Shown here in pieces: positions 11,873 through 28,485 of a stretch of DNA of 51,341 nt. The DNA lies in NCBI GenBank assembly GCA_018002295.1, contig JAGNGI010000001.1:1-51341 (forward strand), written 5' to 3'. The position numbers were made by a program, and so were the translations under genes. This DNA comes from Fidelibacterota bacterium. GTDB taxonomy: Bacteria > Fidelibacterota > UBA2242. Every line of letters begins with the position of its first letter. The stretch's first letter is position 1. The notes beneath the pieces were generated by a model. The model saw only the letters and a list, made by a program, of their open reading frames with translations. It did not search any database and was not told where the DNA came from.

Positions 11873-13009
11873 ATGAAACGACGAGAATTTATCGGTACTT
11901 TAGGGATTACTGCCGCGACCGCACGTATATCACAGGCATTCCCCCTTATATCTCAATTAAAAACCAAAACCACCGATTCTGGCATGAAAGTACGTTACGA
12001 AATCAAAGCTTTGAAATTGAAACATACCTGGACAATTTCACGCAATTCCAGCGATGTGAAAGACAATGTTTTTGTTTACCTTGAAAAGGACGGCATCACC
12101 GGCATCGGCGAAGCCGCACCGAATATTCGCTATGATGAGACTCCAGAATCAACTATCGAGCTTATCAAAAAAGCCACACCTTTGATCGAAAGACTAAATC
12201 TCTCGGAATTTACCCAATTTGGCTTCGCGCTGCAAGAAATCGAGTCCGGCCAAACTGCCGGGAAATGCGCCATTGATATGGCTTTAATGGACTGGATCGG
12301 CAAGTCTCTTAACCTCCCACTTTATAAATTCTGGGGACTCGATCCAACCAAAGCCCCACTGACCTCCTTTACGATTGGCATTGATACGGCGGAAATTGTC
12401 AAACAAAAAACGCGCGAAGCCGAACCTTTTAAAATTCTCAAGATCAAAGTCGGCGGTCCAAACGACGAGGAGATAATTACCACCGTGCGCAGTGTCGCCC
12501 CGGATAAACCAATCCGGGTTGACGCCAATGAAGGCTGGAAAGATAAGGAAATCGCCACTCGTAAAATTGAATGGTTAGCCAAAAATGGCATCGAGCTAGT
12601 TGAACAACCTCTGCCGTCCGAGATGCTGGAAGAAACACGCTGGATTCGTGAGCGCATTGATATTCCGATCATCGCCGACGAAACCGTCAAGACTGCTTCT
12701 GATATCCCTAAACTCGCCGATGCTTTCGATGGCATTAACATCAAACTAATGAAAGCCGGTGGTCTTCAGGAAGCCCTGCGAATGATCTGGCTGGCTAAAT
12801 CACTTGGCATGAAGATTATGATCGGTTGTATGATCGAAAGTTCGGTCGCCATTTCCGCCGCAACTCAACTCTGTTCGCTGATTGATTACGCTGACCTCGA
12901 TGGTAATCTGCTAATCTCGAACGATCCCTTTAGCGGTGCGATTTTCAGAGATGGCCGCCAGTTCCCGGCGGATAGACCGGGATTAGGTGTAAGAAAAGCA
13001 ACAGGCTGA
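11873..13009 (+). CDS. Tat-exported dipeptide epimerase (enolase superfamily)
   Basis: A 378-residue enolase-superfamily protein of the muconate-lactonizing subgroup. The N-terminus KRREFIGTLGITAATARISQA is a twin-arginine signal, so the enzyme should fold in the cytoplasm and act in the periplasm. Metal ligands are in RVDANEGW, ELVEQPL and IIADETV; catalytic lysines are in LKIKVGG (about residue 188) and INIKLMKAGG (about 288). This K/K arrangement and the closing DLDGNLLISNDPF match L-Ala-D/L-Glu epimerases, which rework murein-derived or other dipeptides. The exact dipeptide is unknown. RBS: ACAGGATCG just before ATG. The neighbouring divergent MFS gene suggests uptake of the product. Confidence 0.85.
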   Translation: MKRREFIGTLGITAATARISQAFPLISQLKTKTTDSGMKVRYEIKALKLKHTWTISRNSSDVKDNVFVYLEKDGITGIGEAAPNIRYDETPESTIELIKKATPLIERLNLSEFTQFGFALQEIESGQTAGKCAIDMALMDWIGKSLNLPLYKFWGLDPTKAPLTSFTIGIDTAEIVKQKTREAEPFKILKIKVGGPNDEEIITTVRSVAPDKPIRVDANEGWKDKEIATRKIEWLAKNGIELVEQPLPSEMLEETRWIRERIDIPIIADETVKTASDIPKLADAFDGINIKLMKAGGLQEALRMIWLAKSLGMKIMIGCMIESSVAISAATQLCSLIDYADLDGNLLISNDPFSGAIFRDGRQFPADRPGLGVRKATG

Positions 13010-13011
13010 GA

Positions 13012-13080
13012 TTAGTCATTGGTTATTGGTTATTGGTCATTAGTCATTGGTCACTGGTCATTAGTCATTGGTAAATAGTA
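13012..13080. repeat. heptamer tandem array 1 (consensus TTRGTCA)
   Basis: About ten imperfect tandem heptamers (TTAGTCA, TTGGTTA, TTGGTCA, CTGGTCA and similar) begin two bases after the epimerase stop. The array ends in GTAAATAGTAAAAAGG and passes into a 13-mer array. It is the first of three similar arrays in the gene-free stretch 13010-13806. Confidence 0.9.
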
Positions 13081-13087
13081 AAAAGGT

Positions 13088-13146
13088 TGAGAAAAGAGAC
13101 TGAGTAAAGAGACTGAGAAAAGAGAATGAGAAAAGAGATAGAGAAG
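13088..13146. repeat. 13-mer tandem array (consensus GAGAAAAGAGACT)
   Basis: Four tandem units of 13 bases (GAGAAAAGAGACT, GAGTAAAGAGACT, GAGAAAAGAGAAT, GAGAAAAGAGATA) plus a partial follow heptamer array 1 directly. Shorter pieces follow arrays 2 and 3, so heptamer and 13-mer parts form one composite repeat. The next 140 bases (13150-13290) are A/T-rich with no gene or motif that I recognise. Confidence 0.85.
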
Positions 13147-13293
13147 GAAGGCGGAAGACAGTTTCGCGGAAATTGGTTTGGCTATTTGTGATTTGGAATT
13201 TGGGTTTTGGGATTTTACTCATTTAGCGGTTCTTGGCGAACTTGGCGGTTTATTCTCTTAAGACCAAAACAAGAAAAATAAGGTTAAGAATGG

Positions 13294-13368
13294 GCATTGG
13301 TCATTGGTCATTAGTCATTGGTCATTAGTCATTGGTCATTGGTCACTGGTCATTGGTAATTAGTAAAA
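13294..13368. repeat. heptamer tandem array 2
   Basis: About ten units of the same TTRGTCA consensus, ending GGTAATTAGTAAAAAGG and followed by GCTGAGAAAAGAGATAGAG, the 13-mer-type sequence. Same orientation and order as array 1. Short open frames across it are low-complexity artefacts. Confidence 0.9.
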
Positions 13369-13643
13369 AGGCTGAGAAAAGAGATAGAGAAAAGAGGAGC
13401 AGAGGAGCGCTAAAACTAACCATCCAGTTTACCATTACGGCATCAAGAACATCTCCGACTGGGAAGCGAAGTCCCAGCGGAAAAAATGGAATTTTCAGCG
13501 CTGTAATAGCACTTTCGTAAATATCCATTACCCTTTCCTTTATCACTAAGGTTATATGAACTTGATGACTTTTGCGCCTTAAATTCCATTCGCTGGGGAT
13601 GAGCGAACCCCCGTGAGAGGTTCTTTAGCCGTTGCCTTTTTTG

Positions 13644-13672
13644 GTTCTTTTTTCGGCAAAGGAAAAAAGAAC
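13644..13672. other. perfect 11 bp hairpin within the repeat region
   Basis: GTTCTTTTTTC and GAAAAAAGAAC enclose a 7-base loop. It lies in the 280 bp unique-looking piece between heptamer arrays 2 and 3 (13400-13682), where no gene can be supported. It could be a terminator working in either direction or part of the composite repeat. Confidence 0.45.
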
Positions 13673-13682
13673 AGGAAAGTTT

Positions 13683-13738
13683 GTCATTAGTCATTGGTCA
13701 TTGGTCATTGGTCATTGGTAATTAGTAATTAGTAAAAA
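13683..13738. repeat. heptamer tandem array 3
   Basis: Seven or eight units of TTRGTCA/TTGGTCA, ending GTAATTAGTAAAAAGG and followed by TTGAGAAAAGAGATTGAG. Same order and orientation as arrays 1 and 2. Confidence 0.9.
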
Positions 13739-13776
13739 GGTTGAGAAAAGAGATTGAGATTTAAGTTCTTTATAAG

Positions 13777-13811
13777 TCTCAGTCTCTTTACTCAGTCTCA
13801 GCCTTTTTATT
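13777..13811. repeat. inverted copy of the 13-mer segment
   Basis: CTCAGTCTCTTTACTCAG and the following CTCAGCCTTTTTATT are the reverse complement of the AAAAAGG-CTGAG-AAAGAGACTGAG part found after the heptamer arrays. It can pair with 13730-13760 to make a large hairpin. It also contains the stop codon of the convergent TPR gene. Confidence 0.75.
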
Positions 13812-14949
13812 GAGTATAGGGTGTTTTCAAATAAAGCTTGGCTAATTGGCAGGCTTGCGAGCGGTTCTTCAATCCATACGCTCGCTGGTAGCATTGAACC
13901 GCCAATTCCCGCCGACCAGTCAAGTCATAGACATTGCCCAATCTAAGAAGCGCAAATCCCAACTGGACATCCATTTCCTGGTCATAATTATCAATCACTG
14001 CCCGAAGTTCCTTCTCAGCTGTCGCCAGATTACCTTTCTTAAGCGCCAGACTGCCCTGCAATTGATGCAATTTTGACCAATACTCCTTTTGCGTTTTGGG
14101 CTTTAATTTCGGCAATAATTGTTTGATTCGCTTAATCTGTTTTTCAGCCTCGGCGTAGCGCCCCATTTGAATCAGCGCCTCACCAGCTAGGTAATTATAA
14201 TACGGATTATTGGGAAAGTCGGACGCCATCATCTCCGCATAGTAGAGTGTGGACTTGTAGTCACCTTCGAAATATAAAGTTACCATTGCCAGAATACTGC
14301 GCGCTTCATAACAACTGTAACGCGCATTATGAGCGGCATAACGCATCTGCGCCAATCCCTCCTCTTTACTTCCCGACGTATTCATAATCCAGGAGGCGAT
14401 TTGCATATAGCCTCGCGAAATACCCACATAATAATTGAACACGCCAAAAGGTATTTGGAGCTCTATGAAATCAGGTTGATGACGTTCCGCCGCCTTGATA
14501 TAGCGCACCGCATTGTAGCCGTTAATCAAGACACCCAGGTAATCTTTTTCACCGAGCGACAACCGGGCTTTCAAACCGTAAGTACAACCATAATAAAATT
14601 CCAGCTCGCCGTTCTGCGGGTTAGCTTTTAATTTATCATGATAAATTGCCAGAACGGAGTCAATCCGCGAAGCCAGGATTCGATTGCCCTCCTGATAGCC
14701 CAATTCTTCCTGATTCTTCAACCAATCAGTTGCCAGTTCTGCCATCGGCGCCAACGGATGAAACGGTTGGCTACTTAATACTTCTTTAAAATGCTGGTGC
14801 GCGGCGACGTTATTCAGGTTATACATCTCAAATAAGGCTTGCTGGATTTTTTGTTCCTGCCATTCGTTGGCATTACCCGGTATTGAGTACAAACTGATTA
14901 AAGAAAAATAAACAATTAAGAGCGTTACAATTTTATGTTCACCAGTCAT
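13807..14949 (-). CDS. exported tetratricopeptide-repeat protein
   Basis: I place the start at ATG 14949, giving 380 residues with a signal peptide (KIVTLLIVYFSLISLYS, cleavage near GNA-NEW). The frame stays open upstream to 15189, but that part overlaps the nitroreductase gene on the other strand and looks non-coding. The mature protein is helical: an IQQALFEMYNLN start, a middle with EFYYGCTYGLKARLSL and GVFNYYVGISRGYM, then TPR units such as NPYYNYLAGEALIQMGRYAEAEKQ and GFALLRLGNVYDLTGRRELAVQCYQRAYG. Similar periplasmic TPR proteins are common in FCB bacteria, and their role is unknown. The stop codon lies in repeat sequence. Confidence 0.75.
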   Translation of the reverse strand: MTGEHKIVTLLIVYFSLISLYSIPGNANEWQEQKIQQALFEMYNLNNVAAHQHFKEVLSSQPFHPLAPMAELATDWLKNQEELGYQEGNRILASRIDSVLAIYHDKLKANPQNGELEFYYGCTYGLKARLSLGEKDYLGVLINGYNAVRYIKAAERHQPDFIELQIPFGVFNYYVGISRGYMQIASWIMNTSGSKEEGLAQMRYAAHNARYSCYEARSILAMVTLYFEGDYKSTLYYAEMMASDFPNNPYYNYLAGEALIQMGRYAEAEKQIKRIKQLLPKLKPKTQKEYWSKLHQLQGSLALKKGNLATAEKELRAVIDNYDQEMDVQLGFALLRLGNVYDLTGRRELAVQCYQRAYGLKNRSQACQLAKLYLKTPYTQ

Positions 14950-20565: not shown

Positions 20566-20970
20566 ATGATAAAAAAACTCAACCACATCGGCATCGCGGT
20601 CAACTCTCTTACGGAACACATATCGTTTTATCGGGATATTTTGCAATTAAAGTTCGTCGGCATCGAAGAAATTGCCGACCAGAAAGTCAAAACCGCCATC
20701 TTTCAAGTCGGTGAAATCCGGATCGAATTACTCGAAGCCACTGCGCCCGATAGTCCAATCGCCCAATTTCTCGAGAGAAGAGGTGAAGGTTTGCATCATC
20801 TGGCTTACCAAAGCGACAACATCGAACGAGAACTACAATTTTTAAGAGAACATAATGTTGCCTTGATTGACGAAAAGCCGAGAGGCGGCGCGCATCATAC
20901 TCGCATCGCTTTCCTGCACCCGAAATCCACTGGCAAGGTCTTGACTGAAATCTGTGAGGAAAAGAGGTAG
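20566..20970 (+). CDS. mce: methylmalonyl-CoA epimerase
   Basis: Interconverts the (R) and (S) forms of methylmalonyl-CoA, linking the mutase to the decarboxylase. The 134-residue vicinal-oxygen-chelate fold has metal ligands in LNHIGIAV (His near residue 6), EGLHHLAYQ and LTEICE; the central IELLEATAPDSPIAQFLERRGEG is characteristic of the family. It starts 4 bases after meaB. It is followed directly by an inverted-repeat unit carrying an unrelated GxxExxY gene. Confidence 0.95.
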   Translation: MIKKLNHIGIAVNSLTEHISFYRDILQLKFVGIEEIADQKVKTAIFQVGEIRIELLEATAPDSPIAQFLERRGEGLHHLAYQSDNIERELQFLREHNVALIDEKPRGGAHHTRIAFLHPKSTGKVLTEICEEKR

Positions 20971-20999
20971 TTTTAGACAAGATTAACAAGATTTACATG
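20971..20999. repeat. left inverted repeat flanking the GxxExxY gene
   Basis: Bases 20971-20993 are the exact reverse complement of 21464-21486 (23 of 23 by eye; core AGACAAGATTAACAAG). Bases 20986-20999 are the exact reverse complement of 21434-21447. It begins immediately after the stop codon of the epimerase gene. Confidence 0.9.
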
Positions 21000-21024
21000 T
21001 TGTTTATTAATATTTAGAACTAAG

Positions 21025-21474
21025 ATGGATAATAAAATACACGAAGAGTTATACAAGGATAAAGAATTGACATCCACCATAATCGGTTGTGCTTACAAGG
21101 TCTATAAAAACCTGGGATTCGGCTTTTTAGAGTCCGTCTATGAAAAGGCTCTGATAATTGAAATGACCAAAGCGGGTTTGAAATCCGAATCTCAGAAAGC
21201 AATTGATGTCTATTATGATGACCAAATTGTTGGACATTTTATTGCCGATCTTTTTGTAGAAGGAAAAATAATCGTTGAATTAAAATCTGTAGCGACTTTG
21301 ACGAAAAGTCACGAAGTTCAATTAGTGAATTACTTAACAGCTACCAGAATAAATATCGGACTATTAATAAATTTCGGAGAGGAGAAAGTCGAAATCAAAC
21401 GCAAAATAAGATCATTAAAACAATCAAATCAATCATGTAAATCTTGTCAAAAGAAAAAAAATCAATCTTGTTAA
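21025..21474 (+). CDS. GxxExxY protein (PD-(D/E)XK-like)
   Basis: A 149-residue member of the GxxExxY family: the name-giving motif is GFLESVYEKAL at about residue 34, followed by YYDDQIVGHFIADLFVEGKIIVELKSV. The latter is a nuclease-like D..E-x-K core (D in IADLF, E and K in VELKS). The last 18 residues (SNQSCKSCQKK and on) are translated from the right inverted repeat, and the stop codon lies in it. The gene splits the methylmalonyl-CoA operon between epimerase and decarboxylase and has no metabolic link to it. Family function is unknown. The flanking repeats suggest that it moves or spreads as a unit. Confidence 0.85.
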   Translation: MDNKIHEELYKDKELTSTIIGCAYKVYKNLGFGFLESVYEKALIIEMTKAGLKSESQKAIDVYYDDQIVGHFIADLFVEGKIIVELKSVATLTKSHEVQLVNYLTATRINIGLLINFGEEKVEIKRKIRSLKQSNQSCKSCQKKKNQSC

Positions 21475-21508
21475 TCTTGTCTAAAATAAAAACAATGTTA
21501 ATCTTGTC
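21434..21508. repeat. right inverted repeat flanking the GxxExxY gene
   Basis: Three related pieces: CATGTAAATCTTGT (21434-21447), AATCTTGTTAATCTTGTC up to 21486, and TGTTAATCTTGTC (21496-21508). The first two are perfect reverse complements of parts of the left repeat. They are separated by an A-rich insert, so the right end is an expanded form of the left end. The decarboxylase gene starts 23 bases later with its own AAGGAG. Confidence 0.88.
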
Positions 21509-21531
21509 AATAAAATATACAAGGAGCATAA

Positions 21532-23082
21532 ATGAGTCGTCAACGTAAACTACTTGAATTAAAAGATAAAATTGAACTTGCCAGAATGGGCGGCGGTGCG
21601 GAAGCCATCGAAAAACAGCATCAGCGCGGCAAGTTAACTGCCCGGGAGCGCCTGCAATTACTACTCGATCCGAATAGTTTTGAGGAAATAGATGCCTTTC
21701 GCACTCATTCCTGTACCGACTTCGGTATGGCTGACAAGAAATTTCTCGGCGACGGAGTCGTCACCGGTTATGGCACCATCTATGGTCGCCTGGTATTCGT
21801 TTATTCTTTTGATTTCACGGTCTTCGGTGGTTCGCTATCAAAAGTCGTAGCTGAAAAAATTGTCAAAATTATGGAAATGGCGACTAAAGTCGGCGCTCCG
21901 TTAATCGGCATCAATGATTCCGGAGGCGCGCGAATTCAGGAAGGGGTGGATTCACTGGCCGGTTATACCGAAATTTTTGTGCGCAATGTGCTTTACTCGG
22001 GCGTCATTCCCCAGATTAGCGCCATCGTCGGACCTTGCGCCGGCGGAGCAGTTTATTCACCGGCGCTGACCGATTTTATTTTTATGGTTAGAAAGTCAGC
22101 CTATATGTTTTTAACTGGCCCAAAAATAGTCAAAACCGTTACTCACGAGGATGTCACCGCCGATGAATTGGGTGGCGCCGATGTTCACGCCAGCAAAAGC
22201 GGCATTACTCATTTTACCTATGACGATGAACAAAGTCTGTTCGCCGGTATGCGCGAACTGCTAAGCTATTTACCGCAAAACAATATGGAAGAGCCGCCCG
22301 TTATTGCACCGACTGATCCGGTTGATCGCATTGATGAGGAATTGAATTATATCGTGCCCGAAAATCCCAATAAGCCTTACGATATGAAGGAAATTCTCGC
22401 CAAAGTTCTGGATGACGGACAATTCCTCGAAGTTCAGGCTTTGTACGCCACCAATATGCTAATCGGGTTCGGACGTTTAAACGGCAAAGTCGTCGGCATT
22501 GTCGCCAATCAACCCCGATCGCTGGCGGGCGTCATTGACACTAACGCGTCGAACAAAGCCGCCCGTTTCGTGCGCACCTGCGATTGTTTCAATATTCCCA
22601 TCATTACTTTCGAAGATGTGCCGGGATTTATGCCGGGCACCGCCCAAGAATTCAACGGCATTATCAAGCACGGCGCTAAACTCCTCTATGCTTTTGCCGA
22701 GGCAACCGTGCCCAAAATCACGGTCATTACCCGCAAGGGCTATGGCGGCGCATTTTGCGTCATGAATTCGCGCCAACTGCGCGGCGATTACAGCTTCGCC
22801 TGGCCCAGTGCCGAAATAGCCGTAATGGGTCCAGAAGCCGCCGCCGAAATTATCTTTGCGCACGAAATTAAAACCGTCGAAAATCCGGAACAGCGTTTCG
22901 CCGAAAAAGTCGAAGAATATCGCGAAAAGTTCGCCAATCCCTACATCGCCGCCTCCAAAGGCTACATTGATGAAGTGATTGAACCTAAAGTTACTCGCTA
23001 CAAATTGATCAAAACGCTGGAGATGCTTTCTAATAAGCGCGATACTCTCCCACCTAAGAAACATGGCAATATTCCTTTATAG
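21532..23082 (+). CDS. mmdA: methylmalonyl-CoA decarboxylase, carboxyltransferase (alpha) subunit
   Basis: The 516-residue carboxyltransferase moves the carboxyl group from methylmalonyl-CoA to biotin on the carrier subunit. It has the two crotonase-like halves of this family: GGSLSKVVAEKIVKIME and GINDSGGARIQEGVDSL with the oxyanion glycines in the N-terminal half, then AGVIDTNASNKAARFVR and GYGGAFCVMNSRQL in the C-terminal half. On sequence alone it could be a propionyl-CoA carboxylase beta chain, but no biotin carboxylase gene is near, and gamma, biotin carrier and sodium-pump beta subunits follow. AAGGAG sits 7 bases before the ATG. Direction in the cell (propionate formation or use) is not fixed by the sequence. 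Confidence 0.93.
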   Translation: MSRQRKLLELKDKIELARMGGGAEAIEKQHQRGKLTARERLQLLLDPNSFEEIDAFRTHSCTDFGMADKKFLGDGVVTGYGTIYGRLVFVYSFDFTVFGGSLSKVVAEKIVKIMEMATKVGAPLIGINDSGGARIQEGVDSLAGYTEIFVRNVLYSGVIPQISAIVGPCAGGAVYSPALTDFIFMVRKSAYMFLTGPKIVKTVTHEDVTADELGGADVHASKSGITHFTYDDEQSLFAGMRELLSYLPQNNMEEPPVIAPTDPVDRIDEELNYIVPENPNKPYDMKEILAKVLDDGQFLEVQALYATNMLIGFGRLNGKVVGIVANQPRSLAGVIDTNASNKAARFVRTCDCFNIPIITFEDVPGFMPGTAQEFNGIIKHGAKLLYAFAEATVPKITVITRKGYGGAFCVMNSRQLRGDYSFAWPSAEIAVMGPEAAAEIIFAHEIKTVENPEQRFAEKVEEYREKFANPYIAASKGYIDEVIEPKVTRYKLIKTLEMLSNKRDTLPPKKHGNIPL

Positions 23083-25875: not shown

Positions 25876-27147
25876 TTACTTCATCAGAACCATTTTCTGT
25901 GATTTGGTATAATTACCGGCATTCATCTGGCAGATATAAATTCCGCTGGGGACCGGATTCCCAGAATGATCAGTCCCATTCCAAGTAATGGATTGGTACC
26001 CAGCCGGTTGAGTTTCATTTACAAGTGTGATTATTTCTTTGCCGAGGATATTGTAAATCTTTATAGTTACAGCTGCCTCATCTTTTAAAGCGTATTGGAA
26101 AGTGGTGGTGGGGTTGAAGGGATTGGGATAGTTCTGTGAAAGAGAAAAAATTGTGGGAGTCTCTGTTTCTTTCTTGACTTCTGTGAGACCGGAAATAGAC
26201 CGGTACCAAAGACCGTTTAGCCCGGTGCCCACAAATAAATTGTCCCCGCAAACAGCCATACTGTAATTAAACAGACTGTCGGGCAAGTCCCCGGTAATAT
26301 CCAGCAACTTCATTTCTTGTTTTAATAATAGAAATATTCTTGGTCTTGTAGCAATAAATAATTGTTCACCGTTACTGGCAAATGCTATTATGTACGAACC
26401 TTCATTGAATTGCTGCCAGCTTAATCCAAAATCTGTTGTATAAAATAACCCACCGCCTGAAGAACCGACTCCTGCAAAGATTTTTTTATCGAATAAAATA
26501 AGTCTTTTTATTTGGGGGTATGGACTTGGTTCGGGATAGACTGGCAATCCATTATTCAACGCATTCCATGTATTTCCATAATCCGAAGATCCATAAATCC
26601 CCATCTCTTCAGTACCAACAAAGATAAGAGAATCAAATGCTATAAGTGATTTATTCGTACAACTGACACCGTTCCAAATCTCCGTCCAGGTATTCCCATT
26701 GTCGGGAGACTTCAATACACCAGCAGGACAAACATCGGTTGTCGTTCCAGCATAAAGATTGCTATCACAATATGCCAGCGCAGTAACTCCGACATTAGCA
26801 TAGCATTCCTCCCAGTTGAGGCCCCAGTCGGATGTGCGGAATATGTAACCGCCTTCAAATCCTTCACCGGTAAAAATATAGTCATCGGTAATGACAATAT
26901 CATTGGGATGACTGGCCTGCGAGTTGAAACATTCCGTCCATGAATTGCCGTAATCTTTGGAATAGAAATAACTGACGGCGCTGTCGCTCAGGAGACCGCC
27001 GCCCAGGAAAATCACACTATCCTTTACCGAAATTGCTGAGACAAAACCTTGATTAATCACCGGCGACTGCATCCATTGACCATGAACGACCGGCTGACAA
27101 AAAATGATTGACACAAATATGATAATTATGACTTTTGATTTCAACAT
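25876..27147 (-). CDS. secreted YCF48-like beta-propeller protein with type IX sorting domain
   Basis: A 423-residue exported protein: signal peptide (KVIIIIFVSIIFCQPVVHG), then repeated propeller blades with the sequence theme SKDYGNSWTECF, RTSDWGLNWEEC, SPDNGNTWTEIW, SSDYGNTWNALN and TTDFGLSWQQF. These are BNR/YCF48-type repeats with S-x-D-x-G-x-x-W. The C-terminal 85 residues form a sorting domain that opens FSLSQNYPNPFNPTT and closes with PSGIYICQMNAGNYTKSQKMVLMK, the pattern recognised by type IX secretion. It is therefore surface-attached or released. The next gene upstream is a close paralogue sharing a near-identical 116 bp block. The ligand is unknown. Confidence 0.85.
   Translation of the reverse strand: MLKSKVIIIIFVSIIFCQPVVHGQWMQSPVINQGFVSAISVKDSVIFLGGGLLSDSAVSYFYSKDYGNSWTECFNSQASHPNDIVITDDYIFTGEGFEGGYIFRTSDWGLNWEECYANVGVTALAYCDSNLYAGTTTDVCPAGVLKSPDNGNTWTEIWNGVSCTNKSLIAFDSLIFVGTEEMGIYGSSDYGNTWNALNNGLPVYPEPSPYPQIKRLILFDKKIFAGVGSSGGGLFYTTDFGLSWQQFNEGSYIIAFASNGEQLFIATRPRIFLLLKQEMKLLDITGDLPDSLFNYSMAVCGDNLFVGTGLNGLWYRSISGLTEVKKETETPTIFSLSQNYPNPFNPTTTFQYALKDEAAVTIKIYNILGKEIITLVNETQPAGYQSITWNGTDHSGNPVPSGIYICQMNAGNYTKSQKMVLMK
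26114..26229. repeat. 116 bp block shared with the neighbouring paralogue (copy 1)
   Basis: Matches 27392-27507 at 115 of 116 positions by eye. It codes for the last propeller segment and the ISGLTEVKKETETPTIF linker up to PNPFN. At the 26114 side identity stops abruptly, and the two sorting domains are quite different. Confidence 0.9.
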
Positions 27148-27168
27148 GGCTTTAATCCTTCATGAATT

Positions 27169-28485
27169 TTACTTCATTAAAATAAATTTCCTGGTATTCG
27201 AAAAACTTCCGGCCTGAATATGGTAAAAATAAACTCCGCTGGCAAGATGACTTCCATTGAATTCAACTTCATACGATCCCGTCGGCTTTTCCTCGTTGAC
27301 CAAAGTGACGATCTCTTTGCCAAGAATATCATAGACTTTCAATCTAACCAAACACATTTCAGGTACGGTATATTTTATTTTTGTTGTCGGATTGAAGGGA
27401 TTGGGATAGTTCTGTGAAAGAGAAAAAATTGTGGGAGTCTCTGTTTCTTTCTTGACTTCTGTGAGACCGGAAATAGACCGGTACCAAAGACCATTTAGCC
27501 CGGTGCCGAGAAATAAATTGTCGTCGCATACAGCCATACTGTAATTATATAGACTGTCAGGTAAATCCCCGGAAATATCCATCCACCTCATTTCCTGTTC
27601 AAGTAATACATACACTTTTGTATCCGTATCAGCAAACAAATAATCATTATTTTTCACAAGATTCCTTACCCTTATATAAGATGTTGTGTCCAATCCGTCT
27701 ATATAGTATTTTGTGTCCAATCCGTCATTTAATGTTTGCCAGTTTAAACCATAATCTGTTGAATAAAATACTCCACCGTCTCCAGAAGAATTTGTTATAA
27801 AAATCCTGTTATCAAATAAGACCATACTTCGCACGTTACTATTAGGAGGGAGTCCATTATTCCTCTCTGTCCAGGTATTTCCATAATCCGAAGAGCCATA
27901 GACTCCCGCATTGCCGGTCCCGACAAGAATGAGTGAATCCACGACAACGATTGAAAGAATTCCCCGAGAATCAACCGTCCCATCATTCCAAATCACTGTC
28001 CAGGTATCCCCGTTGTCTGAGGATTTAACTACGTAGTTTCCTCCACAATCTGAAAATGTTCCGGCATAAAGAGCGCCTGCGTAATATATTAAACATCGAG
28101 GGTCGGGATATCCAAACTCTAATCCAAAGCATTCCTCCCAATGGAGTCCCCAGTCGGATGTGCGGAAAATGCAACCGCTTTCTCCTCCTCCTTCAGCGAT
28201 AAAAATATATGTATCCGTAATTACAATAGATCTGGGAATACCGCCTCCCACTGTGATTGTATTGAAACATTCCGTCCATGAATCGCCGTAATCTTTGGAA
28301 TAGAAGTAACTGACGGCGCTGTCGCTCAGGTTACTACCGCCGAGAAAAATTACGCTATCTTTTATAGTTATTGCAGAGATAAATCCCTGATCGATCACCG
28401 GCGACTGCATCCATTGCCCCTGAACTACCGGCTGATAAAAAAAGATTGACAGAAGTATTATTTGAATAATTTTAGATTTTAACAT
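27169..28485 (-). CDS. secreted YCF48-like beta-propeller protein with type IX sorting domain (paralogue)
   Basis: A 438-residue tandem paralogue of the gene at 25876-27147, with the same signal peptide type (KIIQIILLSIFFYQPVVQG) and the same blade order (SKDYGDSWTECF, RTSDWGLHWEEC, SSDNGDTWTVIW, SSDYGNTWTERN, STDYGLNWQTL). The sorting domain starts with the identical FSLSQNYPNPFNPTT but continues as KIKYTVPEMCLVRLKVYDILG and ends ASGVYFYHIQAGSFSNTRKFILMK, clearly a different domain version. GGAGGG lies before the ATG. The two genes are 21 bp apart and probably co-transcribed. Confidence 0.85.
   Translation of the reverse strand: MLKSKIIQIILLSIFFYQPVVQGQWMQSPVIDQGFISAITIKDSVIFLGGSNLSDSAVSYFYSKDYGDSWTECFNTITVGGGIPRSIVITDTYIFIAEGGGESGCIFRTSDWGLHWEECFGLEFGYPDPRCLIYYAGALYAGTFSDCGGNYVVKSSDNGDTWTVIWNDGTVDSRGILSIVVVDSLILVGTGNAGVYGSSDYGNTWTERNNGLPPNSNVRSMVLFDNRIFITNSSGDGGVFYSTDYGLNWQTLNDGLDTKYYIDGLDTTSYIRVRNLVKNNDYLFADTDTKVYVLLEQEMRWMDISGDLPDSLYNYSMAVCDDNLFLGTGLNGLWYRSISGLTEVKKETETPTIFSLSQNYPNPFNPTTKIKYTVPEMCLVRLKVYDILGKEIVTLVNEEKPTGSYEVEFNGSHLASGVYFYHIQAGSFSNTRKFILMK
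27392..27507. repeat. 116 bp block shared with the neighbouring paralogue (copy 2)
   Basis: Partner of 26114-26229, with one mismatch seen (GACCA here, GACCG there). The flanking propeller sequence at the higher-coordinate side remains similar but diverged; the sorting-domain side does not align at DNA level. Confidence 0.9.

Follow-up and report, generated by a model that had tools for sequence, protein, structure and literature searches.

GxxExxY genes between inverted arrays of a 9-bp unit: a widespread architecture in bacterial operons and a putative minimal mobile cassette

In the window, by which we mean the whole stretch of 51,341 nucleotides analysed, a GxxExxY gene (21025-21474) separates the methylmalonyl-CoA epimerase gene from the decarboxylase-alpha gene and lies between two inverted arms made of short tandem units. 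This armed architecture is general, and units of this kind are found across many bacterial phyla. By comparison, several copies are shown to be mobile, though the window copy is not among them. Our main reading, which we favour by a modest margin (probability about 0.58), is that the unit is a minimal mobile cassette whose nuclease recognises its own arms and drives its movement. Under this reading, one PD-(D/E)XK-type nuclease gene and two inverted arms, each of about three imperfect 8-10-bp units (mostly 9 bp), make up a cassette of about 430-590 bp. Comparison shows that it acts as one discrete unit, that copies occupy unrelated sites and lose their homology beyond the arms, that units sit in operon gaps in sense orientation, at or just past a stop codon, that precise insertion is possible, with a target duplication of 6-8 bp, and that the gene can disappear to leave a gene-less arm pair. 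It is inferred that the cassette is expressed by read-through from the host operon, and that the GxxExxY nuclease recognises, at the DNA level, arms belonging to its subfamily and makes the cuts for movement of the unit; joining may be completed by host repair or another enzyme. On this view, the copy in the window is one of these cassettes, placed at the epimerase stop codon. A point against this reading is that, to our knowledge, no PD-(D/E)XK protein of GxxExxY size transposes alone.

The operon neighbours of the window unit are mutase, MeaB, epimerase and carboxyltransferase genes; therefore, the unit interrupts a methylmalonyl-CoA operon. The epimerase gene (20566-20970, plus strand; TIGR03081, E 4.7e-43) ends in the stop codon TAG at 20968-20970, and the 23-mer TTTTAGACAAGATTAACAAGATT begins on the next base. 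This 23-mer (20971-20993) opens the left arm (20971-21008, plus strand), which is a tandem of the roughly 9-bp unit ACAAGATTN with two full units and a partial third. It is perfectly inverted (23/23) at 21464-21486 in the right arm (21449-21486, minus strand), where units of about 9 bp recur, and over a longer stretch of 38 nt the arms still agree at 82%. The gene between them (plus strand, 149 aa; TIGR04256, E 2.9e-43; PF13366, E 9.3e-42) belongs to the PD-(D/E)XK nuclease superfamily, and its last codons and TAA stop (21472-21474) are encoded by the right arm. An inner inverted copy of the right arm spans 21431-21452 (minus strand; 94% over the 17 nt at 21434-21450). The right end has yet another copy, the third, which is partial and is located at about 21496-21513 (minus strand), just before the Shine-Dalgarno sequence of the decarboxylase-alpha gene. 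The latter (21532-23082, plus strand) encodes a methylmalonyl-CoA decarboxylase alpha-type carboxyltransferase that matches PF01039 and scores 796 bits against TIGR01117, below the model cutoff of 998.8 bits. An extra right arm copy is also present in the units of two relatives, G010 and G001. The window arms, of the type ACAAGATT, reach an alignment score of 46, higher than the maximum of 34 in 2000 block shuffles and the maximum of 35 among 77 control intervals in relatives' loci. An earlier note, made from the sequence alone, had claimed the 23 bp repeat after the epimerase stop and its perfect inversion, a 14 bp part at 21434-21447, a third partial copy at the right end, the end of the gene within the repeat, its GxxExxY identity, and the separation of the epimerase and decarboxylase genes. 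All of these claims held, the 14 bp part lying in the further copy at 21431-21452. Beyond that note, we found that the arm is itself a tandem of a unit of about 9 bp, that units of this kind are very widespread, the window copy being no local curiosity, and that a gene-less degenerate arm pair occupies the same junction in several relatives.

Related genomes bear on the three checks that the earlier note had proposed. When the repeat pair was searched for with and without the gene, both states were found; uninterrupted mce-mmdA junctions exist in relatives, with a gap of about 8-100 bp and no GxxExxY gene wherever the junction could be read; and isolated repeats occur both as gene-less pairs and as solo arms. 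The note would have been refuted had all relatives kept the gene at this place with diverged flanks; however, the gene is at the mce-mmdA junction in no relative examined. Arm remnants with the sequence type of the window unit are present there in five relatives (G001, G007, G010, G002 and G008), those of G010 reading TTTAAGACATGGTTAACAGG...CACATCCTGTAAATCCTGTC, and the epimerase reading frame ends inside the left arm in G010 and G007. Since several relatives have such a gene-less degenerate pair, the window copy need not be a fresh insertion. In the tree of the epimerase and mmdA, the arm-bearing genomes form a clade separate from G000 and G004, and G004, the sister genome of the window's, is clean at this junction, without arms. 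Because no relative has the gene at the junction and this sister is clean, the history of the window copy is ambiguous, and an old insertion that either shed its gene or was removed several times cannot be told apart from two insertions at one stop codon. L076, another locus with this arm type, gives a clearer picture: G010 and G007 have the gene, and G001, the sister of G007, and G012 have only the arms, a pattern indicative of gene loss with a gene-less pair left behind. The source genome harbors four GxxExxY copies, and several gene-less arm remnants of the window type at other places.

GxxExxY copies were identified in 45 of the 61 relatives, with up to 24 per genome. When each left flank was scored against its reverse-complemented right flank, matched arms were detected in 69 of the 81 relatives' copies versus 4 of 77 control intervals from the same loci. 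Flanks paired between different loci also reach the arm threshold in 68 of 400 cases, because the arms share a loose consensus, TTAACC-RCNGATT-ACRCNGATT-NCRCNGATT when read from the host side, with a dominant period of 9. The letters of the arms vary between copies, even within one genome, and the two arms of one copy match. Arms are likewise present in 66 of 72 additional copies, which come from Planctomycetota, Bacteroidota, Chloroflexota, Acidobacteriota and other groups (controls, 10/72). The same layout is seen in a Bacteroides finegoldii record annotated by others, between radA and a gene for an FAD-dependent protein, where the arm is TTCACCACAGAGGACGCAGAGGACACGGAG with an inverted partner (arm type CACAGAGG). 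No published description of the repeats or the cassette was found in the open-licence literature searched, nor was any phage record carrying a GxxExxY gene, and defence and phage libraries gave only weak Cas4 and unnamed matches for the protein.

Neighbouring genes were called for 107 units. In 95 of these, the genes on both sides are on the unit's own strand, and 103 follow a sense gene, whereas 51 of 84 control neighbour pairs are co-directional in sense. The median distance is 5-8 nt from the upstream stop codon to the left arm and 17-18 nt from the right arm to the start of the next gene; any single distance is approximate, since a simple longest-first rule was used to call open reading frames. 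Such a pattern would follow both from stop-codon targeting and from read-through expression, and selection for expression alone may account for the sense orientation. Gene-less remnants also occur. A pattern for one arm type has 164 matches in 61 genomes versus 22 for the reversed control, 13 of them in one genome, and 20 sampled places free of GxxExxY include arm pairs 87-242 bp apart as well as solo arms, several directly past stop codons. Genomes with more GxxExxY genes also tend to have more arms (Spearman 0.44, p 0.0003). We also observed a gene-less arm pair of about 240 bp that is duplicated in tandem (L292, G025:C72).

Mobility is shown by two sets of copies with unrelated flanks. The units L070 (G003), L077 (G010) and L255, the last from a Deltaproteobacterium, share 82-98% identity over about 445-480 nt, and their homology is bounded by GTAATAGTTCACCAC...GTGGTGAACTATTAC; L078 and L079, both from one genome, are near-identical. 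Across both sets, identity is 82-98% over about 440-510 nt. In these copies, though not in the window copy, terminal inverted repeats at which the homology ends are therefore established. L079 is the clearest case and also has a precise empty site, the same locus being found without the unit in G013 and G005 at 94-96% identity. At the filled site, TAATTA, from which the upstream stop codon comes, is present in duplicate (6-7 bp). A target duplication with an empty site is a criterion for a transposable element, and this copy meets it. One might instead regard the unit as an ordinary, non-mobile operon gene with auto-regulatory repeats that is inherited vertically. Purifying selection on the protein (see below) and the orthology of some units between genera (L076/L104) speak for this explanation; however, the empty site with target duplication of L079, the homology that stops at the unit's borders in copies from unrelated sites, Neomarinimicrobiota and Deltaproteobacteria among them, and the absence of GxxExxY from all relatives' mce-mmdA junctions examined speak against it, and we consider it very unlikely and already refuted for recent copies. 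The suggestion in the earlier note of a small mobile or selfish unit is supported by the bounded homology, the one precise empty site, target duplications in a subset of copies, the gene-less arm pairs, and a junction where the repeat occurs together with the gene in one genome and alone in others. The mechanism, which that note called unknown, is still only inferred.

The main rival to our reading is a non-autonomous cassette that depends on a conventional transposase acting in trans. This enzyme would be IS66-like for a subset of units with GTAA ends and is unidentified for the rest; the GxxExxY gene would then be a passenger, and the arms would be transposase sites or passenger-regulatory sites. 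This remains possible. In its favour, seven of 148 copies carry GTAANNNTTYA at both ends (control, 0), gene-less arm pairs exist, and 8-bp duplications occur in the subset: they are perfect in L077, L109, L110 and the related L084, which has GATAATAG at its left end, and match at 7/8 positions in L070, L255 and L086. These seven loci have GTAANNNTTCA-like ends that resemble those of IS66, and GTAAGCG ends together with 8-bp repeats are reported for IS66 (PMC11946415). For at least the GTAA-ended subset, which shares its ends and 8-bp duplications with non-autonomous elements of the IS66 family, mobilisation in trans by a separate transposase is thus likely. On the other hand, GTAA ends occur in those 7 of 148 copies only, most units lack them, and GTAANNNTTYA ends are absent from the window unit; furthermore, with a trans-acting transposase one would not expect the arms to follow the GxxExxY protein as they do. 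A search of eight of these genomes gave no IS66 transposase, although, being drafts, they can miss insertion sequences. No target duplication was detectable for the window copy or most non-GTAA units, and the ends of most other units are therefore not fixed; a general scan for target-site duplications over all units gave a weak excess, mostly from the GTAA subset. A search with the flanks of L106 gave no matches, which by itself is uninformative.

The protein bears directly on the reading of a self-acting cassette. The window protein scores 146.9 bits against TIGR04256 (cut-off 35) and 142.5 bits against PF13366 (PDDEXK_3; cut-off 22). Over 47 proteins, two G residues, E36, D75, K87, Q99 and N116 are invariant and E85 is nearly so; the PD-(D/E)XK active-site residues are thus conserved in the family, and nuclease activity is inferred. 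The median dN/dS of about 0.12 indicates purifying selection. Homology searches against solved structures gave nothing convincing for this protein. Over 112 copies, arm similarity follows protein identity (Spearman/Mantel rho 0.35, 0/500 permutations), and the arm sequence goes with the protein clade, not with the host genome; dissimilar proteins share arms in 2.5% of cases within one genome versus 4.6% between genomes. Together, the tracking of arms and protein, the purifying selection and the conserved residues suggest that the protein acts on its own arms. This is unproven, and the co-divergence could be plain linkage.

The arms might alternatively function in RNA. By this explanation, the unit is an element like the intervening sequences of 23S rRNA, with arms that pair in the transcript, excision by RNase III, and spread linked to RNA or transcripts. 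The sense orientation inside transcripts is in its favour, as are S23p units with the same layout; the Coxiella intervening sequence has heptamer repeats and is excised by RNase III, and its authors called its origin unclear (PMC4990558). However, mismatches between GxxExxY arms show no bias to the G-U type (114) over the A-C type (118), which indicates that the two arms are held similar at the DNA level rather than by forming an RNA helix. We therefore rejected an RNA-helix function for these arms. Target duplications and the empty site point to DNA integration, and gene-less solo arms occur, so that we regard an RNA-level element as unlikely. In S23p arms the same test gave a weak bias in the opposite direction (19:36).

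Among known systems, the family lacks the defining features of RAYT/REP, IS66 and S23p elements, and by analogy it would resemble RAYT/REP and S23p in its workings. In RAYT/REP systems (REPtrons, REPINs), inverted short repeats flank the gene, and gene-less pairs and solo repeats lie elsewhere between genes (PMC2817692, PMC3116915), as they do here. Unlike RAYT/REP, the units encode a PD-(D/E)XK superfamily protein instead of the HUH tyrosine transposase of RAYTs (the window protein matches PF13366 only), are multicopy with several arm types per genome, leave 6-8-bp target duplications where ends could be fixed, and have arms that are non-palindromic 9-bp arrays. Palindromic arms of the REP type were rejected on self-folding (z median +0.37, 12% below -2). 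Rpn/YhgA-like nucleases are also of the PD-(D/E)XK type and have been tied to DNA mobilisation or phage defence (PMC5350276, PMC10327210), but they belong to a different Pfam family, and Rpn genes are not known to have terminal repeat arms.

The S23p genes of 23S rRNA intervening sequences (TIGR02436, PF05635) share with GxxExxY units the layout of one small gene between inverted short-tandem arms, in sense in the transcript. They differ in an unrelated four-helix-bundle protein, a period of 7 versus 9, a different arm motif and the rRNA location, which GxxExxY units lack; the window unit has neither an S23p protein (it matches TIGR04256 only) nor a 23S rRNA location, being in a protein-coding operon. 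In relatives, 25 of 27 S23p genes outside rRNA (L165-L194) have inverted arrays of a 7-8-bp unit, and 18 of 21 lie in co-directional gaps. The protein of L165 has a weak match, below cut-off, to the Pfam bAvd-like family PF22296. A bolder reading, which we offer tentatively and judge more likely to fail than to hold, is that GxxExxY units form a hitherto unrecognised class of minimal transposon that spans phyla and would have a single enzyme, a PD-(D/E)XK nuclease of about 120 aa, which would recognise co-evolving arms of 9-bp period, with insertion at stop codons within operons and expression by read-through, and that S23p units, with arms of 7-bp period, would be a convergent twin explaining the origin of 23S rRNA intervening sequences. 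Two very common families of unknown function, GxxExxY and S23p, share one architecture for which our searches gave no report, a single small gene between inverted short-repeat arrays that is sense-oriented in operon gaps. The GxxExxY family thereby gains a testable role, a type of short interspersed repeat that is very common in bacterial intergenic regions is explained, and there is a route into the open question of how 23S rRNA intervening sequences arose and move.

Elsewhere in the window, positions 13000-13816 hold three arrays of a 7-bp unit (GTCATTG/ATTGGTC), arrays of a 13-bp unit (TGAGAAAAGAGAC), and a perfect 23-nt inverted repeat (13096-13118/13777-13799). These arrays look like gene-less remains of S23p-type units; an S23p gene is absent from the source genome. 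Between the 7-bp arrays, on the reverse strand at 13226-13262, lies a solo GxxExxY-type arm, TTTAGCGGTTCTTGGCGAACTTGGCGGTTTA. On the minus strand at 25876-28485, two adjacent, paralogous long open reading frames have near-identical starts and C-terminal ends that resemble sorting domains.
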